Source of the DNA: a virus
Virus record (IMG/VR): IMGVR_UViG_3300021373_003645
Location: 1-25,847 of that record
Length of the DNA stretch: 25,847 bases
Reading direction: 5' to 3' (one strand)
Part shown: one piece after another, positions 1,098 to 25,847 of the stretch
How positions within the stretch are numbered: position 1 is the first letter of the stretch
Layout of the letters: each line of letters opens with the position of its first letter
Program-made: the position numbers and the translations under genes
Notes under the pieces: model-generated
Told to the model about the DNA's origin: nothing
Seen by the model: only the letters and a program-made list of their open reading frames with translations
Database searches by the model: none

Positions 1098-2708
1098 ATG
1101 AGTTTACAAACTTTATTAGAAAGTGCAAACCCATATCACTCAGTACAGAGCGACGCTGCTCGATTAGCTGAAAAGTGGGAAAAAACAGGTTTGTTAGAAG
1201 GTTTAAAAGGTAGTACCAAAAGTAATATGGGTATGATCCTTGAAAATCAAGCTAAACAACTTGTAGTAGAAAGTTCTCAAACAGGTGGAGGAGTTGCCGG
1301 TGGTACCTTTACTCCAGGTGTTGGTGAACAATGGGCAGGTGTTGCTCTTCCGTTAGTACGTAAAGTATTCGGACAGATCGCTGCTCAAGACTTCGTATCA
1401 GTACAACCAATGAATTTACCTTCAGGTCTAGTATTTTTCCTAGACTTCCAGTATGGAACACATAAATCTCCATTCTTGACAGGTTCTTCAATGTACGGTG
1501 ACGTTTCAGGATTCGCTTCAAACGGAACTGAAGGTGGTCTTTACGGAGCTGGAAGATTTGGATATTCTGTTAATGACAAAGAAGCTACGGCTGTAACACA
1601 CACATCTGCATCTGCAGAATGGAGTGATCTTAACTTTGATTCAGATTTCTCATCTTCAACAGTAGTTCCTTCAGATTATTTAATCTTTAGTGTAACACAA
1701 TCTTCATTACCTAACCTTGATTTAGAAGGTGTAAGATCATTCTCTTTAAAATCTGGTTCAGCTGTAGTAAACGTTGCTGCATTTACAAAAGTAGATGGAA
1801 GTGATGTTAAATTTGCAGTTAAACAAGCAGATATCACTGATGGTGGTGATGTAGATGTAGTATACCAATTAGCACCAGTTGATAATGCAAGAGGTGACTT
1901 TGAAGATGGTAATACTGCATTAAACAGTGGTAACAGTGCAATTTCTATCCCAGAAATTAATGTAGAGATGAAATCATCTGCTATTGTAGCTAAAACACGT
2001 AAGCTAAAAGCTGTATGGACTCCTGAGTTCGCACAAGACTTAAATGCTTATCACGCTTTAGATGCTGAAGCTGAATTAACTTCAATCCTAAGTGAGTACA
2101 TTTCATTAGAAATTGACTTAGAAATTATGGATATGTTAATCGAGAACGCTTCTGCTGGTACTGAAGTATGGTCAGCTAAAAATGACAGAGGATACACAGA
2201 TATCTCAGGAAATGGAGCTCACGTAAACCTAGGATTCTACAATTCTCAAGGCCAGTGGTTCCAAACTTTAGGAACTAAAATCCAAAAATTAAGTAACGTT
2301 ATCCACCAAAGAACATTACGTGGTGGTGCTAACTTTATGGTATTATCTCCTAAAGTATCTACAATTATCGAATCAATCCCAGGATTTGCTGGTGATGTTG
2401 ATGGTGATGTAGAAAAATCTACTTATGCATTCGGTGTACAAAAGATCGGAGCAATGGGTGGTGGAAAAATTAAGGTATACAAAAACCCTTATATGACTGA
2501 AAACCAAATCTTATTAGGATTTAGAGGTAGCCAGTTCTTAGAAAGTGGTGCTGTATTTGCTCCTTATATCCCATTAATCATGACTCCTCTAGTATACGAT
2601 CCAGATACATTTACTCCACGTAAAGGTCTCTTGACTAGATATGCTAAGAAGATGGTACGTCCTGAATTCTACGGATTAATCAAAGTAGAAAGTTTAAATC
2701 TTATTTAG
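1098..2708 (+). CDS. gp23: Major capsid protein, gp23-like
   Basis: A 536-residue protein collinear with T4 gp23 by recall. KWEKTGLLEG and MILENQAKQL match the T4 propeptide pattern (KWKPLLEGEG, IFENQEKDF). VQPMNLPSGLVFFLDFQYG matches VQPMNSPTGQVFALRAVYG. KTRKLKAVWTPEFAQDLNA followed by the DAEAELTSIL segment matches the T4 capsid core. It forms the HK97-fold hexameric shell. The gp21 protease probably removes the N-terminal ~58 residues; E58 in QLVVESSQTGGG aligns best with the T4 cut site, though ILE49 also fits. This part is inference. Residues about 150-290 form a less conserved beta-rich insertion. The start follows an A/T-rich leader with no Shine-Dalgarno, and a strong terminator follows the stop, so transcription of this highly expressed gene is insulated. 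Confidence 0.96.
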   Translation: MSLQTLLESANPYHSVQSDAARLAEKWEKTGLLEGLKGSTKSNMGMILENQAKQLVVESSQTGGGVAGGTFTPGVGEQWAGVALPLVRKVFGQIAAQDFVSVQPMNLPSGLVFFLDFQYGTHKSPFLTGSSMYGDVSGFASNGTEGGLYGAGRFGYSVNDKEATAVTHTSASAEWSDLNFDSDFSSSTVVPSDYLIFSVTQSSLPNLDLEGVRSFSLKSGSAVVNVAAFTKVDGSDVKFAVKQADITDGGDVDVVYQLAPVDNARGDFEDGNTALNSGNSAISIPEINVEMKSSAIVAKTRKLKAVWTPEFAQDLNAYHALDAEAELTSILSEYISLEIDLEIMDMLIENASAGTEVWSAKNDRGYTDISGNGAHVNLGFYNSQGQWFQTLGTKIQKLSNVIHQRTLRGGANFMVLSPKVSTIIESIPGFAGDVDGDVEKSTYAFGVQKIGAMGGGKIKVYKNPYMTENQILLGFRGSQFLESGAVFAPYIPLIMTPLVYDPDTFTPRKGLLTRYAKKMVRPEFYGLIKVESLNLI

Positions 2709-2907: not shown

Positions 2908-3645
2908 ATGGCATCAAAACCACATACTGACGACGTTTATCGTCCGAAGAGAATTCCAAAAAACCCAATTAAGTTCAAACTCCAACTTAATGCCGAACAA
3001 AAAGAAGCGAAAGCAGTTATACTTGAAAATACAATTACCCTATTATCTGGTGGGGCTGGAAGTGGAAAAACACTTTTAGCATGTAATGTAGCATTAGATG
3101 GTCTTTTAAGAAGACAATATGATAAAATAATTATTACACGTCCTACAGTATCAAAAGAAGAAATAGGATTTCTACCTGGAGATTTAAGAGAAAAAATGGA
3201 TCCATGGGTTCAACCTATTTACCAAAATTTTTTTGCCTTATATGATAAGGTTAAAGTAGAAAAACTTATTGAAGATGGTAAAATAGAAATTGTACCCGTA
3301 TCATTTATGAGAGGTAGAACATTTTTAGAATCAATGATAATTGTAGATGAAGCACAAAATGTTACCCATGAACAAATGGAAATGATTACATCACGTATTG
3401 GTTTAAGAAGTAAAATGATGATATGTGGAGACCAACACCAAACAGATTTAAAGAAAAAATCTGAATCAGGTTTTAAATTTTTATACACAGCTGCTAGAAA
3501 AATTAAAAATTTAGAAGCAATTACATTACATAGTAACCATAGAGATTCTATTGTAGAAGATTTAATTCAATATTACCAAGAAGCAATTGAAAGAGGTATA
3601 TCAATAACTACATCAGGTTCCTATATTTATAATAATAAAAATTAA
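2908..3645 (+). CDS. phoH: PhoH-like P-loop ATPase
   Basis: A 245-residue PhoH-family ATPase. Walker A is GGAGSGKT with Lys54. Walker B is MIIVDEAQN with Asp147-Glu148. The family blocks TRPTV, EEIGFLPGDLREKMDPW, SFMRGRTF and ICGDQHQTD are all present. The ATG at 2908 is the first possible start after an in-frame TAA at 2893. PhoH proteins are common in marine T4-like phages. The family is linked to phosphate-stress regulons and RNA metabolism in bacteria, but its phage role is not settled. It sits between the capsid gene and the neck genes. A second copy of the ATATTTATAA motif lies inside its last codons (3623-3632), 27 bases before the copy that precedes gene 13. Confidence 0.95.
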   Translation: MASKPHTDDVYRPKRIPKNPIKFKLQLNAEQKEAKAVILENTITLLSGGAGSGKTLLACNVALDGLLRRQYDKIIITRPTVSKEEIGFLPGDLREKMDPWVQPIYQNFFALYDKVKVEKLIEDGKIEIVPVSFMRGRTFLESMIIVDEAQNVTHEQMEMITSRIGLRSKMMICGDQHQTDLKKKSESGFKFLYTAARKIKNLEAITLHSNHRDSIVEDLIQYYQEAIERGISITTSGSYIYNNKN

Positions 3646-4824: not shown

Positions 4825-5355
4825 ATGGCAATGTTTGGTCGCTTACGTGATGTAAGCTTAATAAGAGGATTAAATAGAGAGTTATTACATGATATTATAA
4901 CTCAACAAGCAGCTATCTATAAATTTAAACTAGAAGAAACTGGTGTAAATATTTATGGTGAAGCTGCTGGAGAAAAATATTATGATGGTCCTTTTTTGTT
5001 TAATTGTTTAATTAATAGAGAAGACCAACAATATACTGAAACAGATGAAGGAGTAGGATTTGGACAAGGAATTGAATTTGCTTTTTTTAGAGATGATTTA
5101 GTAGATGCTAATGTGGTACCTGAAGTAGGAGATATTATACTATACCAAAAAAATTATTATGGTGTAGATTCTACAATCTCTAACCAATATTTTGTAGGTA
5201 AAAACCCATCATATCCTAATAACAACTCAGATGGATCCTTAAATCCTTTAAACCCAGGATTAGAAAATTTTGGTACTAATTTATCAATTATAATTAAAAC
5301 CCATAAAATACCAAATGATAAAGTAGCAATTTCACCATATAAAGAAAGATTTTAA
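4825..5355 (+). CDS. gp14: Neck protein, gp14-like
   Basis: A 176-residue protein lying between the genes for gp13 and gp15. The central block (GFGQGIEFAFFRDDLVDANV, then VPEVGDIILY, then QYFVGKNP) matches the pattern of gp14 neck proteins, which carry a phage-conserved FAFLRxDL...GDIIxYxxxYYEID segment. It is shorter than T4 gp14 (256 residues). It is expected to act with gp13 in completing heads so that tails can attach. The start is one base after the gp13 stop, and the stop codon shares its last base with the next ATG (TTTTAATG), which indicates translational coupling. Confidence 0.78.
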   Translation: MAMFGRLRDVSLIRGLNRELLHDIITQQAAIYKFKLEETGVNIYGEAAGEKYYDGPFLFNCLINREDQQYTETDEGVGFGQGIEFAFFRDDLVDANVVPEVGDIILYQKNYYGVDSTISNQYFVGKNPSYPNNNSDGSLNPLNPGLENFGTNLSIIIKTHKIPNDKVAISPYKERF

Positions 5356-23662: not shown

Positions 23663-24502
23663 ATGGATTTATCAAAGCTTAAACAGAAATTGGATACCCT
23701 CCAATCAAAACCACAGGGTGGTCAAAAGACCGATTACTCAACTATTTTTTGGAGACCTACAGTAGGTAAACAACAAATTAGGATTGTACCATCCGCGTAC
23801 GATACTTCAAACCCATTTACAGAACTCAAATTCTATTATGGTATAACAAATAAGGTTATGATTTCACCACTTAATTTTGGTGATAAAGACCCTATTGCTT
23901 TATTTGCTCAAAAACTTCGTGAAGGTGAGTATAATAAAGAAAATTATGTACTTGCTAAAAAGCTAGACGCTAAAACACGTACTTTTGTTCCCGTTGTAGT
24001 ACGTGGAGAAGAAGATAAAGGTGTTAGACTATGGCAATTTGGAAAACAAGTATATGAAGAATTACTTGCTCTTGCAGTAGATGATGAAATTGGGGATTAT
24101 ACCGATATTGTTGGTGGTAGAGATATCACAGTAGAAACAGTAGGACCAGAATCAACTGGTACTCCTTATAATAAATCATCAGTACGTGTTAGATTAAAAA
24201 CTTCACCCCTTAGTGAAGATGCTGAATTAGTAGAAAAATGGACAAGCGAGCAACCAAACCCAACAGATGGTTTGTTTAAACGTTATTCATTTGATGAAAT
24301 GAAATCAGCATTAGAACAATGGTTATCACCAGAAGAAGGAGAAGAAGAAGAAGTTGTTGCAGCCCCAGTTGCACAAAAACCCACTACTAATTTTAGTTTA
24401 GATACTACTAAAGCTAAACAAAGTAAAGTAGATGAATTTGATTCTCTATTTGATACAAAATCAGGTGGATCCAGTAATAATGCTGATGATCTTCCTTTCT
24501 AA
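23663..24502 (+). CDS. gp32: Single-stranded DNA binding protein, gp32-like
   Basis: A 279-residue protein, close to T4 gp32 (301). The OB-type core begins TIFWRPTVGKQQIRIVPSAY, with FTELKFYYGI, and continues NYVLAKKLDAKTRTFVPVVV and GVRLWQFGKQVYEELLALA. The C-terminal region is acidic (EEGEEEE near residue 232), then flexible, ending FDSLFDTKSGGSSNNADDLPF. The protein contains no cysteine, so the zinc site of T4 gp32 is absent. The DDLPF end resembles the DDIPF tip of bacterial SSB, which binds many repair and replication partners. It coats single-stranded DNA and should work with the UvsX gene two bases downstream. A 6-bp hairpin lies 26 bases into the coding region. Confidence 0.9.
   Translation: MDLSKLKQKLDTLQSKPQGGQKTDYSTIFWRPTVGKQQIRIVPSAYDTSNPFTELKFYYGITNKVMISPLNFGDKDPIALFAQKLREGEYNKENYVLAKKLDAKTRTFVPVVVRGEEDKGVRLWQFGKQVYEELLALAVDDEIGDYTDIVGGRDITVETVGPESTGTPYNKSSVRVRLKTSPLSEDAELVEKWTSEQPNPTDGLFKRYSFDEMKSALEQWLSPEEGEEEEVVAAPVAQKPTTNFSLDTTKAKQSKVDEFDSLFDTKSGGSSNNADDLPF
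23689..23705 (+). promoter_or_regulatory. Hairpin 26 bases into the SSB coding region
   Basis: ATTGGA (23689-23694) and TCCAAT (23700-23705) pair perfectly around the loop TACCC. It is one of three hairpins at nearly the same offset in consecutive replication genes. Confidence 0.5.
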
Positions 24503-24504
24503 GT

Positions 24505-25578
24505 ATGGCAAAAAAAGTATCAAAGTCTCTCTCGGCGGCAGTGTCCGCCGAGATTAAGAGCAAATTTGATCTTAATAAATTTAAATCATCTAAAGGTTTA
24601 AATAAAAACGTCAAATTTAAGGAACAACAATGGATACCATTATCACCTGCTTTTCAAAAAGTAGCTGGTGTCCCTGGAATACCAATGGGACATATTTCAT
24701 TACTTAGAGGACATTCTGACACAGGTAAAACTACGGCATTACTAGAGGCAGCTGTTTCAGCCCAAAATATGGGAATTTTACCTGTATTTATTATTACTGA
24801 GATGAAATGGAATTGGGAACACGCAGCCCAAATGGGATTACAAGTAAATTTAATCAAGGATGATGAAGGGAATGTTGTAGATTATGAAGGTAATTTTATC
24901 TATGTTGATAGAGAGACTTTACATACAATTGAAGATGTAGCTGCCTTTATTATGGATTTACAGAATGAGCAGAAAAAAGGTAACTTACCTTATGATTTAG
25001 CATTCTTTTGGGATTCAATCGGATCTATCCCTTGTGCAATGTCAGTTGAAAAACTAAAAAACAATAATGAGTGGAATGCAGGAGCAATGTCAACTCAATT
25101 TGGTAATACAGTAAACCAAAGTATTGTAATGTCCCGTAAAGAATCATCACCTTATACTAATACTCTAATTGCAGTTAATAAAGTTTGGACAGCAAAAGCA
25201 GAATCACCTATGGGTCAACCTAAAATGATGAATAAAGGTGGAATGGCTATGTGGTATGATGCAACATTTGTAGTTACATTTGGTAATATTTCAAATGCTG
25301 GAACATCTAAAATCAAAGCAATTAAAGGTGGTATGCAGGTAGAATGGGGTAAAAGAACAAACTTACAAATTGATAAAAACCATGTTAATGGTATGCAATC
25401 AAGAGGTAAAATTGTTATGACAAACCATGGTTTTATTGAAGATACTGATAAGGATAAAAATGCTTATAAAAAAGACCATGCAGATGAATGGTCTAAAATT
25501 CTAGGAGGAGGACAATTTAAAATTGTAGAAGACCAAGAAGATACAACACCTGTGCTTTACGACGCAGAAGACTTATAG
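24505..25578 (+). CDS. uvsX: UvsX-type RecA-family recombinase
   Basis: A 357-residue RecA/UvsX protein. Walker A is RGHSDTGKTTALLEAAVSAQ with Lys75, followed by FIITEMKWNWEHAAQMGLQV. The Walker B-like strand is YDLAFFWDSIGSIPC. QFGNTVNQSIVMSRKESSPY and TLIAVNKVWTAKAESPMGQP then KMMNKGGMAMWYDATFVVTF match UvsX-type L2 and core segments. The acidic C-terminus is usual. It forms filaments on single-stranded DNA for strand exchange and recombination-dependent replication, working with the gp32-like protein encoded just upstream (two bases between genes). The start codon is followed at +25 by a GC-rich 9-bp hairpin whose codons (TCG, GCG, TCC, GCC) are unusual for this genome. Confidence 0.94.
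   Translation: MAKKVSKSLSAAVSAEIKSKFDLNKFKSSKGLNKNVKFKEQQWIPLSPAFQKVAGVPGIPMGHISLLRGHSDTGKTTALLEAAVSAQNMGILPVFIITEMKWNWEHAAQMGLQVNLIKDDEGNVVDYEGNFIYVDRETLHTIEDVAAFIMDLQNEQKKGNLPYDLAFFWDSIGSIPCAMSVEKLKNNNEWNAGAMSTQFGNTVNQSIVMSRKESSPYTNTLIAVNKVWTAKAESPMGQPKMMNKGGMAMWYDATFVVTFGNISNAGTSKIKAIKGGMQVEWGKRTNLQIDKNHVNGMQSRGKIVMTNHGFIEDTDKDKNAYKKDHADEWSKILGGGQFKIVEDQEDTTPVLYDAEDL
24530..24553 (+). promoter_or_regulatory. GC-rich 9-bp hairpin 25 bases into uvsX
   Basis: TCTCGGCGG (24530-24538) pairs perfectly with CCGCCGAGA (24545-24553) around the loop CAGTGT. There is no T tract after it, so it is not a standard terminator. It is the most GC-rich short segment noticed in this part of the window. Confidence 0.65.
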
Positions 25579-25588
25579 AAAGTAAAAC

Positions 25589-25847
25589 ATGAAACATAAA
25601 GAATTATTTAGTCTGCTGGACAGTGTCCAGGAGGATCAGGAAGAGACTGTACAAAAGAAACATGATAGAGTACTAATTTTAGATGGTTTAAATCTATTTT
25701 TTAGAAACTTTGCTATGATGAATATGGTTAATCCTGATGGAGTTCACATTGGTGGATTAGGTGGGTTCTTCCGTTCTTTAGGTGCCATGATTAGACAAAC
25801 AAATCCAACCTCTGTTTATGTAGTATTCGATGGAGCAGGTTCTACAA
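25589..25847 (+). CDS. 5'-3' exonuclease / flap nuclease (T4 RNase H-like), 3' end outside window
   Basis: The ATG at 25589 opens a frame that continues to the window edge (86 codons seen). After a charged N-terminal ~27 residues, RVLILDGLNLFFRNFAMMNM, HIGGLGGFFRSLGAMIRQTN and PTSVYVVFDGAGST show the start of a PIN/FEN nuclease: the first metal-binding Asp in ILDGLN, and VVFDG as the second. In T4 the related RNase H removes RNA primers and flaps on the lagging strand. Here it would also complement a family-A polymerase lacking its own 5' nuclease. The gene starts 11 bases after the uvsX stop. A hairpin 27 bases into the coding region shares CAGTGTCC with the uvsX hairpin. Confidence 0.88.
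   Translation, partial: MKHKELFSLLDSVQEDQEETVQKKHDRVLILDGLNLFFRNFAMMNMVNPDGVHIGGLGGFFRSLGAMIRQTNPTSVYVVFDGAGST
25616..25630 (+). promoter_or_regulatory. Hairpin 27 bases into the flap nuclease gene
   Basis: CTGGAC (25616-25621) and GTCCAG (25625-25630) pair perfectly around the triloop AGT. The string CAGTGTCC (25621-25628) is also found in the uvsX hairpin at 24539-24546, in another reading frame. Confidence 0.5.

Follow-up and report, generated by a model that had tools for sequence, protein, structure and literature searches.

Three consecutive replication genes of a T4-type virus each carry a perfect hairpin about 25 nucleotides inside the coding sequence, which raises the question of whether such structures are selected as RNA or follow from the encoded peptides, and what would respond to them. 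The window, meaning the whole stretch of DNA that was analysed, is a virus record of 25,847 bases with a T4-type gene set, in which PHROG matches identify a major capsid protein, a tail sheath, a gp32-type SSB and a UvsX-like recombinase. The window genes and early-coding hairpins described below lie on the plus strand. The ssb gene (23663..24502; PHROG 1192 SSB, E 4e-19) encodes a T4 gp32-type single-strand binding protein and holds the position that ssb has in the gene order of Immutovirus NC_055915. The start codon of the uvsX-like recombinase gene (ORF 24505..25578; PHROG 97 UvsX-like, E 1e-14) lies 2 nt past the ssb stop. It is followed by a 5'-3' exonuclease/flap-nuclease (FEN) gene (25589..25847), an open frame from 25589 that is cut by the window end and whose identity agrees in gene order with the annotated 5'-3' exonuclease of NC_055915. 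The nearest isolate found is that same genome, Flavobacterium phage immuto, with a UvsX 62% identical and the order ssb-recombinase-5'-3' exonuclease-DnaB in common with the window. The sequence GTTACAT stands directly before the ssb start in the window (23654) and before ssb and dnaB in immuto (NC_055915 2418 and 5375), and is perhaps a start-region or promoter motif.

The three hairpins are found as the first-pass annotation described them, in position and in their stems of 6, 9 and 6 perfect base pairs. The SSB hairpin, ATTGGA-TACCC-TCCAAT (23689-23705), starts at +26 from the ATG at 23663 and has a 5-nt loop with its apex at +34. The uvsX hairpin, TCTCGGCGG-CAGTGT-CCGCCGAGA (24530-24553), starts at +25 from the ATG at 24505, with a 6-nt loop and its apex at +36.5. 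The core of the FEN hairpin, CTGGAC-AGT-GTCCAG (25616-25630), starts at +27 from the ATG at 25589 and closes a 3-nt loop with its apex at +34; past one mismatch, an outer CT/AG pairing widens the whole to 25613..25633, and the extended stem begins at +24. When the single sequences are folded and compared with dinucleotide shuffles, the uvsX hairpin alone is significant (z -4.5), the window copies in SSB and FEN reaching z -0.5 and -1.25; for these two such shuffles are insufficient, and the proof is a comparative one. A covariance-model comparison with Rfam finds no known family at these positions, even with the threshold relaxed to E<=1. The first ~75 nt of ssb, past the hairpin as well, are nearly constant across many loci whose SSBs are only 78-90% identical, and two more short stems fold in this stretch (window 23690-23737).

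The grouping of the three stems had been flagged as needing a statistical test, and it passes one. When codons are redrawn by window usage under unchanged peptides, 0.5 of the 23 window genes are expected to bear a perfect stem of 6 bp or longer with its start at +15..+40, and four do (p 0.0007); these are SSB, uvsX, FEN and a gene at 4825. The per-gene values are p 0.004 for SSB, 0.20 for uvsX and 0.021 for FEN, and their product, the joint p of the trio, is 1.7e-5. Taken by itself, the uvsX stem is unremarkable: its peptide, SLSAAVSAE, is easily palindromic, and such a stem forms in 20% of the synonymous draws.

Relatives supply the comparative proof. Scanning with UvsX recovered 80 loci, and against a codon null based on average codon usage the median z-scores, which are non-independent among relatives, are -4.18 for FEN (62 distinct relatives, 97% at p<=0.05), -3.56 for SSB (50 distinct, 82% at p<=0.05) and -3.9 for uvsX (18 distinct members of the SLSAAVSA clade, with double changes). 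The observed pairing is 0.79 for SSB, 0.96 for uvsX, and 0.93 and 0.89 for FEN classes A and B, where the highest values in 300 synonymous draws are 0.60, 0.77, 0.72 and 0.70; in all tested families it lies above all 300 draws and all slid registers. The SSB stems use 19 different 5' arms (null pairing 0.545+-0.017), and SSBs only about 45-55% identical place unlike stems at the same codons. SSB stems in which the letters differ while pairing is kept include TTGGA-TACCC-TCCAA, CGATTGCA-AGAAA-TGCAATCG and GTCTGAA-CTCTA-TTCAGAC. Arm pairs in the SLSAAVSA clade of uvsX include, besides TCTCGGCGG/CCGCCGAGA, TCTCGGCAG/CTGCCGAGA and TTTCCGCGG/CCGCGGAAA. In FEN, the two classes have loops of 3 nt and 6 nt, differing by one inserted codon; the class A core shows C-G/T-A exchanges, and pair 14/18 changes from C-G to T-A, first-base and third-base changes being paired. 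The loops of FEN and SSB are free to vary, and that of uvsX is kept solely inside the SLSAAVSA clade. The alignments thus indicate a real RNA element under selection in SSB and FEN, its fold kept by compensatory changes while the letters change.

The kind of mismatch that is tolerated identifies the strand. A-C mismatches are rarer than under the synonymous null (31 vs 69.5 in SSB, 4 vs 34 in FEN class A), whereas G-U pairs are hardly depleted (19 vs 19.5 and 28 vs 38), which places the helix in the coding-strand RNA, that is, the mRNA. A DNA cruciform is disfavoured by the same asymmetry. The stems are built with rare codons (CTG 1.1%, CTC 1.8%, TCG 2.6%, GCG 4.8%, GTG 3.4%). At codons 10-14 the SSB and FEN peptides converge on L-D-x-[LV]-Q, a consequence of stems that are in phase, in which Leu codons pair with Gln codons and Asp codons with Val/Ile codons. 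Synonymous conservation is not higher in the hairpin than in its surroundings, and in FEN it is lower (0.60 vs 0.71), as expected if pairs change together. The element is also lost in places. The uvsX stem is gone from the SLT and LSSE clades, and the immuto clade has no FEN hairpin, a weak one in SSB and, in uvsX, a different stem with a 17-nt loop (AAACCGC...GCGGTTT), which shows the element to be dispensable there. Within the clade of the window, the element has survived both challenges that the first-pass annotation set for it, synonymous shuffling and compensatory change in relatives.

The same annotation treated the hairpins as a feature of replication genes, which is true of the neighbourhood and not of the genome. 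For 30-nt windows at +18 in the same set of loci, FEN has a median z of -3.7, SSB of -2.4 and uvsX of -1.5, and the neighbours, named by their order against NC_055915, stay near zero (helicase -0.2, ribonucleotide reductase -0.5/+0.4, polymerase -0.2, gp2-like gene -0.1); exactly ssb-uvsX-fen stand out in this 8-kb neighbourhood. When 52 ortholog families from 16 contigs are ranked, FEN is first, uvsX second and SSB sixth, with gene 4825, phoH and capsid filling places 3 to 5. Gene 4825 (4825-5355, 176 aa, downstream of phoH) has a perfect 6-bp hairpin, GCTTAC-GTGAT-GTAAGC, at 4841-4857, starting at +16, and corrects the earlier impression that only a weak phoH stem follows other starts; the median z of its family, taken over 42 distinct relatives, is -2.1 at +18. 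Within that family the early-coding hairpin occurs in two registers that are unlike each other, GCTYAC-GTGAT-GTRAGC and CAGAGAG-ATGT-CTCTCTG (window 4841-4857, loci L370-L449). The phoH stem itself (2929..2944, at +21 in phoH, 2908-3645) is weak and of 5 bp in the window, and reaches 7 bp in relatives G001 and G002 (GGACGAT-GTAT-ATCGTCC or near); the family median z is -2.1 at +18 in 34 distinct relatives. In the capsid family (window gene 1098..2708, PHROG 138) the hairpin has its apex at about +46 and is weak in the window copy, with examples in G008 and G019 and a median z of -1.9 at +30 in 49 distinct relatives. Six families of mixed function thus bear the element and most neighbours do not: fresh scans put most other structural-gene neighbours near zero, and the tail sheath has no conserved hairpin.

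The proposal of one fixed offset gives way to one offset per family, constant within families and different between them, from an apex at about +25 to +28 in gene 4825 and phoH, through that of the trio, to about +46 in capsid. The other half of that proposal, an mRNA structure under selection just past the initiation footprint, holds. Across 907 ORFs the mean z is +0.10 at offset 0, falls to -0.51 at +18 and -0.57 at +27, and returns to about -0.25 past +70; the ORFs were called mechanically and some starts are wrong, which is expected to dilute the signal and not to create it. Family-weighted stems at +20..+39 are 4- to 5-fold above the synonymous null, and about 3-fold without the trio. At +20..+59, the stem excess is 3.8 in immuto, 4.7 in G011 and 4.1 in G013, the three largest relatives, and 2.9 in G016 and 1.7 in G001, two smaller contigs. 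T4 has 22 stems there against 10.2+-2.3 under the synonymous null, a 2.2-fold excess, and nothing comparable is seen within the opening 75 nt of its uvsX or gene 32. Low-G+C hosts show excesses of 1.6 to 2.3, the 48 genes sampled from E. coli being too few for a verdict.

This profile, with weak folding at 0-20 nt and folding above the synonymous-codon null at about 30-70 nt, is that of the published transition peak, a zone of selected mRNA folding 30-70 nt after the start that is tied to high expression (Peeri and Tuller 2020, PMC7063772). The place and the synonymous-codon logic are the same, but the transition peak is known as a genome average, whereas here single compact stems covary in named genes of a phage clade. 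The hairpins are best described as a strong, gene-specific form of it. On the sequence evidence, there is roughly an even chance that they are cis-acting early-coding structures, selected for pairing and not for letters, with the ribosome, initiating or already translating, as their direct target. The conserved structure, free letters, family-specific offset, mixed gene functions and milder excess in T4 favour an effect on the ribosome over a repressor that reads sequence. Both the ribosome as target and the sign of the effect are inferred. The start region (-20 to about +22) would stay unstructured so that a 30S subunit can bind without a Shine-Dalgarno (SD) sequence; the hairpin base would lie about 8-10 nt past the leading edge of the initiating ribosome, which would meet it with codons 3-5 in the P site; and a brief slowing there could meter initiation, space ribosomes or hold a subunit near the start. 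In T4, SSB, UvsX and the capsid protein are highly abundant. Against a direct effect on the ribosome speak the sheath, which would be expected to be abundant and has no conserved hairpin, and FEN, which is not an obvious high-abundance protein; the loss in the immuto clade, the uvsX losses in two clades and the unequal offsets across families also weigh against it. Selection on early-coding folding is usually visible just as a genome-wide average, and here single genes keep a compact stem by compensatory change. A large and diverse clade of Flavobacterium-type phages supplies many natural variants, losses and replacements, and its natural pairs (the same protein with and without the stem) are suited to asking whether an early hairpin promotes or restrains translation in bacteria whose initiation does not use Shine-Dalgarno pairing.

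A translational repressor is a possible though rather unlikely reader of these stems: a gp32-, gp43- or RegA-like phage protein would bind them as operators, for instance SSB recognising the hairpin shape together with the A+U-rich start flank, so that excess SSB represses ssb, uvsX and fen jointly. In favour of this, the element occurs in three adjacent genes and is missing from the replication genes around them, and gp32 targets combine strict structure with relaxed sequence (PMC535899). The likeness to the T4 operators, the gene 32 pseudoknot and the gene 43 hairpin (PMC3014915), extends to T4-like replication genes with RNA structure near the start codon. Those operators, however, are located at the ribosome site or upstream of it and depend on a protein, whereas the trio stems begin in frame at about +25 and the loops of FEN and SSB carry no conserved recognition sequence, that of uvsX being clade-limited. 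A shared repressor site had seemed conceivable from CAGTGTCC, common to the uvsX and FEN loops of the window in different frames, but this sequence is not kept in the FEN of relatives, and the search for it together with the loop comparison yields no common motif. The presence of the element in capsid, phoH and gene 4825 is a further difficulty. There is a small chance of a regulon defined by shape only, in which one phage RNA-binding protein, possibly SSB, reads a hairpin of any letters lying a fixed distance into the coding sequence; if true, ssb, uvsX, fen and some late genes would be co-controlled in a host without Shine-Dalgarno initiation.

The first-pass annotation had also suggested a structure that replaces Shine-Dalgarno pairing, and this is doubtful: a hairpin of the Kozak type would halt a sliding or scanning 30S subunit and keep the start codon in the P site. 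In its favour, Bacteroidota lack SD sequences (PMC6847099), and eukaryotic hairpins downstream of the AUG enhance start recognition at a set distance, best at 12-18 nt with some effect to 27-30 (PMC2001202), where the hairpin base is at +16 to +27 here. That system concerns eukaryotic scanning ribosomes, however, and no bacterial precedent was found in the literature searched. Gene 4825, at +16, falls within the optimum, but the trio lies beyond it, at variance with the expected spacing, and the capsid stem is further out. T4, an SD user, has an excess too, and hairpin strength is not significantly correlated with upstream A content or gap. A speciality of SD-less translation was likewise rejected, given T4 and the just weak excess in hosts, as was the idea that the stems make up for weak start surroundings (genes with a hairpin have A at -3, if anything, more often). 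Translational coupling was also rejected, as hairpin strength is independent of the distance to the upstream stop. A role in mRNA stability, RNase processing or RNA-polymerase pausing, outside translation, is improbable: helices on the mRNA strand are compatible with any of the three, but cleavage at the hairpin would ruin the reading frame, a promoter-proximal pause would be of little purpose in uvsX and fen, which look operon-internal, and 6-9 bp is a short stem for RNase III. It is scarcely credible that the stems are chance or a by-product of peptide constraint. The uvsX peptide and the unremarkable shuffles of the SSB and FEN window copies point that way, but fixed-peptide nulls are exceeded in every family and first- and third-base changes are paired, which refutes it for SSB and FEN.

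Two further structures were observed in passing. The gene upstream of ssb (immuto gp002 family, loci L210-L230) contains a near-invariant palindromic TTCGATTACGATATCGAA at about +30, encoding FDYDIE, in a region with a median z of about -1. After the capsid gene, at 2737-2761, a strong terminator-like hairpin, AAAACCCGGC-CTTGT-GCCGGGTTTT, is followed by a T run.
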